Of a stretch of 29,549 nt of DNA, positions 1,762 to 7,229 are shown in pieces. The notes beneath the pieces are model-generated. The model saw only the letters and a program-made list of their open reading frames with translations, was not told where the DNA came from and did no database searches. A program made the position numbers and the translations under genes. Within the stretch, counting starts at the first letter, position 1. The number at the start of each line of letters is the position of its first letter. Origin of the DNA: a virus. The stretch spans positions 1 to 29,549 of IMG/VR virus record IMGVR_UViG_3300034051_000038; one strand, written 5' to 3'.

Positions 1762-2438
1762 AGGAAATTAATTAAGGTGTTATAATAGTCACGGCATAAC
1801 TCTACGCGTTCTTTAATTGCTTCGATAACGGCTTCGTCTTTTTTTACTTCGAATACTTTAACGCGTCGGTTATCTGGTATGTGGTCGAAGTTATGTCGTT
1901 TTTGTACTTCGTCCCGTAGGTCTATGCTTTCCTCTAGTAGATTAGCGTTCCAATGTGCGCGCCTTACTTCGTCTTCTACCATTTCTTCGGGTGTATTTAC
2001 CAAACAATAGCACAAAAACGATTCGGTTTTACCCGTAAGTTCCATGTAACCTTGAAGCTGGTAGTAATAGTCTTTTGTAGGTATTTCAGTAGCAAAAAAC
2101 GGAAAGGTGGTAGCATCCCATGAACTCTTAACGTCTAGTAGAACGGTGTCCGTGTTTACGTCGGGTGTCCCAGTCATCCAGTCGTTAGTAAAATGGTCTT
2201 CGTTTTTCCAAGTAAAGCCTAAATCTAGAATGTCCGAAACTAATTTAATAGCGTCGTCTTCTACTAGTATTCCTTTATCTGTGTAACGGCTGTAAAATTG
2301 CTTTTTAATTCCGTACTTGTCTTGGATAACTTGTTCTTCTATGTATGTCTTTGCGGTTTGGCTTAATAACTCCCCCTTTGTTCGGGGGTTTGTCATTATC
2401 TTACCTATTGCAGAACATCTAATCTTAAAAGTATTCAT
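1758..2438 (-). CDS. YqaJ/lambda-Exo-like 5'-3' exonuclease
   Basis: 226 residues of the PD-(D/E)XK exonuclease fold. Visible catalytic set: E60 (GILVEDDA), D93 (TGTPDV), D102-V-K104 (LLDVKSS) and Q127 in YYYQLQGYMELTG, the glutamine motif typical of the viral YqaJ recombinase nucleases. Such enzymes resect double-strand ends and leave 3' single strands for the annealing protein. The partner ERF gene is directly upstream, with a four-base overlap, making a complete exonuclease plus annealase recombination pair. The length is normal for this family. Confidence 0.85.
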   Translation of the reverse strand: MNTFKIRCSAIGKIMTNPRTKGELLSQTAKTYIEEQVIQDKYGIKKQFYSRYTDKGILVEDDAIKLVSDILDLGFTWKNEDHFTNDWMTGTPDVNTDTVLLDVKSSWDATTFPFFATEIPTKDYYYQLQGYMELTGKTESFLCYCLVNTPEEMVEDEVRRAHWNANLLEESIDLRDEVQKRHNFDHIPDNRRVKVFEVKKDEAVIEAIKERVELCRDYYNTLINFL

Positions 2439-5366: not shown

Positions 5367-6316
5367 TCTATATTTTTTAATTTGTTGCCTAAATTCGTTA
5401 AGGTTTTTACTTCTTCTTTAATTGGTGCGCCGTAAATCTTTTCGTAAACATTCGGTGCTTTGGTAATTTGTTCAAAGTAACTTAATCTTTCTTTATCGAA
5501 CCATATTTCAATTTTACCTATGTTTCCATTTGAACGTGGCTTAATCTTATTAAAGTAAATTTCAGCTAGGTTAAACGTTGGGTCTTCACGGTGTACCGTT
5601 ATCATGCACTTGCCAGAATTAAACCATTCAGAACCTCCTTTTAAATCATATGGACTAGGTGGGTTACGTTTACCGTTTTCCTTTTCCGTTAGTTTCGGGT
5701 GAATTATAGTATGTAAATGTAAGCCGTTGTCTTCTGCTATTTGGTTTCTATATGGTAAAACGTATTCTAAGTATTGAGCATAACCGCCATATTCGTTATA
5801 AGGGTGGTTTAAATCCTTCCAGCTGTCAATAGAAGCCGTATGTAGTTCGCCTTTCTTTTGTATTTCTACTGCCATATCCCAAAATTGAATAGGTGTTAAC
5901 TTTGCTTTTATATCCGCACGGGTCAAAACTTTAAAATGATTGATAACCCAGTCAATAGCTTGTGTAATTTCACTATCCTTAATTACGTTTCGGTCTTCTG
6001 GATTAAAACTTTTTCCAGTCTTTTTATGTATTAAGTCAGCTATTATTTCTACGTTACTTCCTACATCTGGAAAATATACTAAATGCTTCCATCCGTAAAA
6101 CTTTGAAGTGTTCATCAAACATTCCATTAATACTTGTGTTTTACCACTCATAGGGAAACCCGTCCAATCTGTGCAATTACCTAAAGACATAGAGTAATGT
6201 TCGTGAAGGCTTTTAAATCCTAAATACTTTCCTTTTTGGTTATAGTTATCTCGGTGTTTAAATAAGTCCGTTATTACGTCGCCAGCTTCTGTTATTTTAA
6301 ATCCGTTTAACTCCAT
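5357..6316 (-). CDS. DnaB-like replicative helicase (RecA-fold ATPase)
   Basis: 319 residues with only the C-terminal, motor half of a DnaB-type helicase. Walker A is GFPMSGKT (53-60), the Walker B-like strand HTASIDSW has D164, the sensor-like LHTIIHPK is at 201-208, and the late motif DLKGGSEWFNSG...MITVHRED (224-245) matches the DnaB 'DLKGSSE...HR' region with its arginine-finger neighbourhood. The N-terminal primase-interacting domain is missing, as in many phage versions. It overlaps the initiator gene by ten bases; together they form the replication pair, comparable to lambda O and P in layout. Confidence 0.85.
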   Translation of the reverse strand: MELNGFKITEAGDVITDLFKHRDNYNQKGKYLGFKSLHEHYSMSLGNCTDWTGFPMSGKTQVLMECLMNTSKFYGWKHLVYFPDVGSNVEIIADLIHKKTGKSFNPEDRNVIKDSEITQAIDWVINHFKVLTRADIKAKLTPIQFWDMAVEIQKKGELHTASIDSWKDLNHPYNEYGGYAQYLEYVLPYRNQIAEDNGLHLHTIIHPKLTEKENGKRNPPSPYDLKGGSEWFNSGKCMITVHREDPTFNLAEIYFNKIKPRSNGNIGKIEIWFDKERLSYFEQITKAPNVYEKIYGAPIKEEVKTLTNLGNKLKNIEWT

Positions 6317-6939
6317 GCTGGTCTAAATTTATTTGGTTCTTTTACTTGTTCAATAGTTTGTATTTTATCCCAAAACAAACCAGTCCAACCCATTTCAATA
6401 GATTTTTCTATAACGCTTGTACATTGTTCATTTGTGTAGCTTTCCATTTTCTTTAAAATAGTATTTATTGTTTGTTGACTTAATGCCTTACGAATTGACT
6501 TTCTGTATTCAATCCAAGAATCTAAAATTAGTTCTTTTTCATTCTTTTCTTTCTTATCATTCTTGTTTGTTGTTGATCGTTTGTTAGTCGTTTGTTGATT
6601 GTTTGTTATTGGTTTGTTAGTAATTTCGTTTTCATCTTGGTAACACTCATATTTACAGATAGTTACTATCGTAAATTGGCTTGTTGATTTTACTTCAATT
6701 TCATTTGTCTTTTCTAACTTTTTTAAAATGGTTCTAATTTGCTGAATACTTATTCCAGTAGCATTAGAAATATTACCCAAAGAAGAAATAAATTGACCTC
6801 TTTTAACATCGTTACCTTGCCATTTAGCGTCTTTATGGTTCGCTTTAATTAACATGTACAAAAACAAATGTACAGCTTCGGACTTATTAAACCATTCCCA
6901 GTCTAAAAACTTTCTATGTATTTTAATCCAACCGCTCAT
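6307..6939 (-). CDS. Phage replication initiator with winged-helix N-terminus
   Basis: 210 residues. Residues about 1-95 (WIKIHRKFLDWEWFN, FLYMLIKANH, ISSLGNISNATGISIQQIRTILKKLE) have the pattern of DnaD-like or replisome-organiser N-terminal winged-helix domains. A low-complexity Asn/Thr/Lys linker (about 107-132) follows, then a helical C-terminal domain ending in KFRPAWS. The DNA encoding the linker holds four phased 11-bp repeats, so the protein probably binds inside its own gene as lambda O does. It overlaps the helicase gene and the gene at 6923. Confidence 0.75.
   Translation of the reverse strand: MSGWIKIHRKFLDWEWFNKSEAVHLFLYMLIKANHKDAKWQGNDVKRGQFISSLGNISNATGISIQQIRTILKKLEKTNEIEVKSTSQFTIVTICKYECYQDENEITNKPITNNQQTTNKRSTTNKNDKKEKNEKELILDSWIEYRKSIRKALSQQTINTILKKMESYTNEQCTSVIEKSIEMGWTGLFWDKIQTIEQVKEPNKFRPAWS
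6565..6618. repeat. Iteron-like tandem repeats, candidate replication origin
   Basis: Plus-strand GTTTGTT occurs at 6565, 6579, 6590, 6601 and 6612, so the last four are spaced exactly 11 bp, one helical turn. The repeats are in the linker part of the initiator gene. Because 11 is not a multiple of three, the periodicity cannot come from a repeated peptide and is a DNA-level signal. The flanks are AT-rich. Origin function is inferred by analogy with iterons in lambdoid initiator genes. Confidence 0.65.
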
Positions 6940-7105
6940 TTCTAAAACTTTCTAGTGCTTTAATAACTGTAAACGCTTGTTTGTCATCAATACAAATTGT
7001 CATTGAATTATCTCCTACAAATATTTCAAAGCAAATAAATTCACCTTTTGAAATAGCCATTTTGTCTTTACCATCGTATTGACATTCTAAATAAATTTCA
7101 TTCAT
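6923..7105 (-). CDS. Hypothetical small beta-rich protein
   Basis: 60 residues with alternating polar/hydrophobic strands (MNEIYLECQYDG, FICFEIFVGDNSMTICI) and a C-terminal helix (AFTVIKALESFRNERLD). No known family is recognised. It is the first gene downstream of the structured RNA at 7126-7217 and overlaps the initiator gene by 17 bases, so any attenuation by that RNA would act on this gene and the replication pair together. Confidence 0.65.
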   Translation of the reverse strand: MNEIYLECQYDGKDKMAISKGEFICFEIFVGDNSMTICIDDKQAFTVIKALESFRNERLD

Positions 7106-7125
7106 TTCTAATAATTTTTAAACAT

Positions 7126-7217
7126 AAAAAAAGCCCTATAAATCCACGAGGCTCGACTTTCGTTTCATTATAAGGCTTCAATAGTTCCTTTAGAGTTTAT
7201 GGTGTCGAGCCAACTCT
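7126..7217 (-). ncRNA. Candidate structured RNA with two kissing hairpins and a terminator
   Basis: On the minus strand hairpin 1 pairs 7212-7217 with 7192-7197 (AGAGUU/AACUCU, 14-nt loop). Hairpin 2 pairs 7168-7178 with 7131-7141 (11 bp, one G-U) plus an upper 4-bp stem (7060-series positions 7160-7163 with 7146-7149) closing a 10-nt loop. A U run covers 7126-7132. The first eight loop bases of hairpin 1, GGCUCGAC, are exactly complementary to GUCGAGCC in the apical loop of hairpin 2. A TATATTTG box ends five bases before hairpin 1, so the RNA would start at the hairpin. It is either an independent 92-nt sRNA or an attenuator of the replication genes. It matches no RNA family I know. Confidence 0.65.
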
Positions 7218-7221
7218 TTTA

Positions 7222-7229
7222 CAAATATA
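7222..7229 (-). promoter_or_regulatory. Promoter -7 box TATATTTG before the structured RNA
   Basis: The minus strand reads TATATTTG (TAnnTTTG consensus), placing a start near 7216, where hairpin 1 begins. No TTG stands at the -33 position. The box overlaps an extra copy of the AATATAGTTAT element that otherwise precedes late start codons, and begins right after the stop codon of the gene at 7231. Confidence 0.55.

Follow-up and report, generated by a model that had tools for sequence, protein, structure and literature searches.

The DNA between a DnaA-like gene and the replication initiator operon of one virus raises the question of whether it encodes a discrete RNA and, if so, what that RNA does. 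The window analysed was the whole of IMG/VR record IMGVR_UViG_3300034051_000038 (29,549 nt), with the RNA read on the minus strand. A sequence-only reading had placed here, between these two loci, a promoter box, two hairpins with loops complementary over eight bases and a U run. The domain and PHROG matches of the neighbouring genes agreed with this placement, and on re-reading the sequence both hairpins with their complementary loops, the U run and the TATATTTG box were found where they had been proposed, except that the box is separated from hairpin 1 by four bases rather than five (Table 1). The internal loop of hairpin 2 is UGAA/GGAU and its upper stem is ACGA/UCGU. Hairpin 1 probably lies at the extreme 5' end of the transcript.

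Table 1. Positions of the RNA, its parts and the flanking genes in the window, with one further hairpin found in related phages
Feature	Position	Strand	Description
DnaA domain-IV-like helix-turn-helix gene, 135 aa	7231..7638	-	Bac_DnaA_C, window member E 5e-4
TATATTTG box	7222..7229	-	matches Bacteroidota -7 promoter element TAnnTTTG; from sequence and homologues
Hairpin 1	7192..7217	-	6-bp stem AGAGUU/AACUCU; 5/6 pairs with double-sided changes
Loop-1 kissing strand GGCUCGAC	7204..7211	-	pairs with loop 2
Single-stranded linker AAAGGAACUAUUG	7179..7191	-	13 nt; family consensus in the alignment AAGGNAUUAUU, about 13 nt
Hairpin 2, intrinsic-terminator shape	7131..7178	-	11-bp base stem, 4x4 internal loop, 4-bp upper stem, 10-nt loop
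Loop-2 kissing strand GUCGAGCC	7150..7157	-	within the 10-nt loop of hairpin 2; complementary to loop 1
U run	7126..7132	-	retained by almost all homologues; the ~90-nt RNA is expected to end here
Short leader	7106..7125	-	separates the terminator from the replication operon's first ORF
60-aa ORF, first gene downstream	6923..7105	-	similar ORF (MNEIYLECQ..) starts after the RNA in L216, L336 and L337
Lambda-O/DnaD-like replication initiator / helicase loader	6307..6939	-	PHROG 2514, E 2e-30
Iteron-like tandem repeats, 11 and 22 bp	6570..6621		candidate origin inside the initiator gene, comparable to lambda gene O; check covered the window only
Small hairpin in phages tooticki, phi18:3 and Harreka_1	L352 ~2240-2290 (tooticki); L358 ~1240-1285; L354 ~2255-2292		before a small ORF preceding the initiator

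The Bac_DnaA_C domain was matched by 19 of the 20 aligned homologues of the upstream gene (best 1e-13), and a protein search with this gene among named phages gave no match. Its product, a stand-alone protein resembling DnaA domain IV and conserved beside the RNA, could be a competitor of host DnaA or a promoter regulator. The initiator encoded downstream also matched PHROG 678, 'replication initiation O-like' (E 3e-12), and phage O proteins.

The window by itself was suggestive only, and it was the comparison of relatives that settled the reality of the RNA. The fold of the window RNA had a z of -1.99, with 7 of 200 shuffles folding equally well. A loose detector of terminator loops complementary to the loop of an upstream hairpin had a single match in the window, which was this RNA, and it found at least one match in 79 of 400 dinucleotide shuffles of the same sequence. 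The window held 37 TANNTTTG boxes against 42.8 expected, so that the box by itself cannot establish a promoter. Among homologues, TAnnTTTG or a one-base variant was located 4-10 nt 5' of hairpin 1 in nearly all cases, and the box also recurred where the sequence upstream was unrelated.

Four contigs recovered through the upstream DnaA-like gene each had the same layout directly downstream, with loops that were altered yet complementary (CCTTCGAC/GTCGAAGG, AAGCAG/CTGCTT and GAGCAG/CTGCTC). A core pattern search of IMG/VR identified 69 stretches, essentially all of them with promoter box, hairpin 1, linker and terminator hairpin 2. Because this pattern prescribed UAAUGAA and GGAUUU next to the internal loop, part of the conservation at that site comes from the search itself; the UAUU part of the linker was also prescribed and the remainder was not. 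In a later variant, UAUUGAA/GGAUAU (L207 and L216), the pairs around the internal loop covary as well. In the alignment of 42 distinct RNAs of this form, here called type A, 95.3% of cells were paired and double-sided changes numbered 299, compared to 94.8 +/- 8.3 after shuffling and 18-38 when the partner strand was slid. The 8-bp kissing helix was 97% paired through many loop sequences and 6 of its 8 pairs carried double-sided changes, and the helices of hairpin 2 (helices 3 and 4) were 98% paired with 8 pairs changed on both sides. The proposed structure was to be tested by compensatory change in its stems and its two loops. Such change was in strong excess, and this covariation argues for all four helices, the kissing helix included. 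A further suggestion, that the central UCGA permits dimerisation, does not apply to the family as a whole, as self-complementarity is missing from most loop variants.

An exact scan of IMG/VR for the 8-mer pair of the window itself gave matches of which most, among those listed, were unrelated, and at least two (L012 and L022) were true members. One natural recombinant was observed (L159:3367-3468), in which hairpin 1 comes from the CCTTCGAC type and hairpin 2 from the GTCGGATG type, so that one kissing pair is mismatched.

The RNA was carried by most of the examined viruses of Flavobacterium-type bacteria. When loci were sampled with the upstream DnaA-like gene rather than the RNA as query, the RNA was directly downstream in 40 of 40 and 16 of 16 cases, and in these samples the same site was occupied by type A or by a sister form, type B. 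A scan of 42 records found exactly one type-A copy in 40 of them and none in two type-B records. The same architecture with different sequences was located before the initiator operon of the cultured Flavobacterium phages tooticki, elemoA, elemoD and 11b, of lillamy and hemulen, and likewise in Cellulophaga phages phi19:3, phi13:2 and phi18:3 and in Olleya phage Harreka_1. Tooticki and elemo have the GUGAG/CUCAC loops in swapped polarity. Near the initiators of tooticki, phi18:3 and Harreka_1 there is also a small hairpin, GGUAAUCUUUAAACC (or CGGUAGCUUAAAACCG), which is possibly another leader element (Table 1).

An R1 search returned no match in FCL-2, in the first 50 kb of crAss001 and phi38:1, or in the initiator regions of Riemerella PJA1 and Vibrio 1.157.O, and an R2 search of these negative-control sequences gave marginal scores only. 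In 84,980 cellular genomes the type-A pattern had one match, on an archaeal contig, which was rejected by the covariance model, so there was no sign of type A, the form that the pattern covers, in prophages or hosts. Matches in Klebsiella were short matches within a topoisomerase gene. The RNA had been proposed as new, and the Rfam comparison bore this out: the window had no match at the gathering threshold in Rfam 15, fourteen loci comprising types A, B and swapped polarity yielded just a tRNA, and three weak matches at E<=10 were at chance level (at best 17 bits, where the gathering scores are 59-90). Literature searches, which covered open papers and not subscription journals, found no description of the RNA. 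Judged by Rfam and by those open papers, the family is new.

The position of the RNA is the first indication of its function. In 90 of 91 distinct RNAs a same-strand ORF begins 8-47 nt past the U run of hairpin 2 (medians 19 and 16), compared to 84 of 399 control sites (GC3+T5) with an ORF start within 60 nt. An ORF this close leaves no space for a further promoter, and the RNA would therefore be the leader of the replication operon, with an intrinsic terminator before the first ORF. The neighbour was a replication gene in most loci, including initiators, primase-helicases (L151 and L155) and a thymidylate synthase (L131). In 51 of 76 initiator loci the RNA was 15-31 nt before the start codon of the initiator, and in at least seven more it was at the head of the operon. 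A few contigs have the RNA ahead of genes other than initiators, and in Flavobacterium phage FL-1 a type-A copy precedes a non-initiator gene. These cases count against the explanation favoured below, as do a second copy in tooticki and the lack of a second target in type A. The tooticki copy (L352 ~1090-1190) is a kissing-terminator RNA with GTCGTCG/CGACGAC loops directly before an HNH-endonuclease gene, also present at the corresponding site in hemulen, which suggests that the cassette can travel with other genes. In a separate contig (L126:2427-2970) the gene after the RNA begins like a GIY-YIG nuclease and not like an initiator.

The explanation we favour, with about even confidence, is that the RNA is a promoter-proximal terminator RNA which limits the replication operon and to which type B adds antisense control of the initiator. 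The RNA appears to be an undescribed switch on the timing or amount of viral replication. Transcription would begin at the RNA's own Bacteroidota-type promoter, almost at hairpin 1, and the ~90-nt product would fold into two hairpins locked by the 8-bp loop-loop helix, the second of them an intrinsic terminator. Most transcripts would stop at the short RNA, leaving read-through as the only source of mRNA for the initiator operon, whose first start codon lies some 20 nt on. Termination may in this way limit or time initiator synthesis and also transcription through the initiator gene with its iterons. Covariation shows the structure and the loop pairing, and the position, the single copy, the shape of the terminator and the type-B match are likewise observed; we infer that the promoter is used and that transcription actually ends at hairpin 2. 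The one nested alternative examined, in which loop 1 pairs with loop 2 in place of the terminator, was 4.6-11.3 kcal/mol worse and was rejected as an antiterminator on energy. Loop pairing is thus compatible with the terminator and no classical antiterminator is apparent. The pairing may instead fix the terminator in a compact fold open to disturbance by a protein, a ligand or a second RNA. Of the functions first suggested for the RNA, that of an attenuator of replication genes is favoured by its distance to the ORF start.

Type B shares its locus with type A and has shorter loops, a kissing helix of 6-7 bp and an AGUA/GAA internal loop that we read as sarcin-ricin/loop-E-like. In 31 distinct type-B RNAs 93.9% of cells were paired, with 84 double changes against 24 after shuffling. 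In type B the translation start of the initiator is a second complement of loop 2, since an exact copy of loop 1 was found in the short leader 3-5 nt before the initiator start in 22 of 26 RNAs, compared to a mean of 7.1 copies (maximum 15) when leaders were shuffled among RNAs. The copy covaries with the loop in six loop types at adjacent starts (AAGCAG, GAGCAG, AGGCAG, ATGCAG, GTTGCAG and GTCGCAG). For a seventh, thyA and other genes lie between the initiator and the operon head, and the initiator start reads GTGCAG TAAAATG, from which a type-B RNA with GTGCAG/CTGCAC loops was predicted at the operon head. This RNA was found about 1.85 kb upstream in five of six records, the contig of the sixth beginning too late to include the site. 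The complement therefore tracks the start codon of the initiator and not the adjoining leader. Control of initiator translation by direct base pairing is strongly indicated for type B by these sequence matches. Exceptions were L229/L243, L233 and the hybrid L265, and the start-codon copies predicted for L229-type RNAs were looked for and not found.

The window RNA, which is of type A, had no copy of loop 1 near any start codon, and in 21 type-A genomes there were 5 loop-2 targets at start codons compared to 8.1 expected by permutation; the copy in L155/L182 (CTTCGACATAATG) may be a coincidence. Support for a base-pairing small RNA thus comes from type B and not from the type of the window. Type A may do the same job as type B and control the same step through termination alone. 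In L412, L424 and L434 the initiator leader (60-130 nt before the ATG) has no two-hairpin RNA but seems to form a different pseudoknot-like arrangement, where a hairpin loop (UCGUGUUU or GCGUUGU) is complementary to sequence just 5' of the start codon (AAACACGA or ACAACGC).

These observations can be taken further than termination. Tentatively, the RNA may represent a widespread, undescribed class of replication-control RNA that combines in one transcript a terminator, an antisense loop against the initiator start and a built-in target mimic masking that loop. Its loops would diversify into allelic types like plasmid incompatibility groups and might determine the copy number of the phage and its compatibility in superinfection. 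Less probable than the favoured explanation is that the terminated product acts as a diffusible antisense RNA, whose loop 2 pairs in trans with the initiator start so that repression scales with genome copy number, and whose loop 1 is a target mimic holding loop 2 until it is required. The excess of start-codon copies in type B, their covariation across loop types, including the predicted GTGCAG case, and the organisation of the RNA as a unit with its own promoter box and terminator are as this would require. However, the target is absent from type A as well as from the L229/L243 and L233 exceptions, loop 2 already has a partner inside the same RNA, and action in trans does not need the constant proximity to an ORF start.

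We think it unlikely that the RNA is a boundary element only, i.e. an ordinary terminator separating operons in which loop pairing stabilises the hairpin without regulation. Its location at an operon boundary and its intrinsic-terminator fold are what such an element would show, but ordinary terminators need neither a promoter box and a conserved linker nor two-hairpin covariation across highly diverse phages and a match to the initiator as in type B. A direct role in replication, for example as a primer or R-loop at an origin by the iterons, is improbable. Beside the RNA are a gene with a DnaA domain and an O-like gene that contains iteron repeats; against this, in L389 and its relatives thyA and other genes separate the RNA from the initiator by ~1.85 kb, and the second copy in tooticki precedes an endonuclease gene. 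Least probable is an anti-host or oligomeric structural RNA (pRNA-, 6S- or GOLLD-like) acting on a host protein or on packaging, since its compact and probably stable fold, its occurrence as one gene in diverse phages and a linker and internal loop that could bind protein are set against strict coupling to the start of the replication operon, interchangeable loop sequences and the lack of an Rfam match, and nothing was found in support of the anti-host function first suggested.

Parts of the favoured arrangement, a terminator leader of the replication operon, have counterparts in known systems. In plasmid ColIb-P9 (IncI-B), the loop of a repZ leader hairpin is complementary to sequence beside the initiator start, and loop-loop contacts govern initiator synthesis. 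The kissing RNA resembles repZ and Inc RNA in that a leader loop matches the initiator start region, in type B only, and differs in that the regulator of ColIb-P9 is a countertranscript from the opposite strand, whereas here the partner loops are on one transcript and one of them belongs to a terminator hairpin. Premature termination in the leader of an initiator mRNA, as predicted for the phage RNA, is known from pT181 and pIP501; unlike in those plasmids, no obvious antiterminator was found and the terminator loop pairs with an upstream hairpin. The put RNAs of phage HK022 likewise open an early phage operon with two hairpins. They suppress termination and are without a terminator or complementary loops, both of which the RNA described here contains. 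The lambda O/ori module has the similar feature of an O-like initiator, here directly downstream, with iteron-like repeats inside the gene, and we know of no comparable kissing leader in lambda. As in the pRNA of phi29, complementary interlocking loops vary in sequence among phages with pairing kept, but the neighbours are replication and not packaging genes, a replication ORF follows and Rfam gave no match to the pRNA. GOLLD and ROOL are described, in PMC12286853, as large ornate structured phage non-coding RNAs that form homo-oligomers; the RNA is also a structured phage RNA and differs from that description in being ~90 nt and without an Rfam match. Control of an initiator by a leader or small RNA is familiar from plasmids, and what is new is the combination on one transcript of a terminator, its kissing partner and a start-codon match.

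The loop pairs are swapped as allelic types, which makes a clean genetic test feasible, and in type B the start codon offers a further site. Cultured carriers exist (FL-1, tooticki, elemo, 11b, phi19:3, phi18:3 and Harreka_1), so the question is testable now. If true, the finding would add a regulatory RNA family common to very different phages of Flavobacteriia, its relatives being of siphovirus, podovirus and myovirus type from both IMG/VR contigs and cultured isolates, and would place it where DNA replication begins, at the decision with the greatest consequences for an infection.
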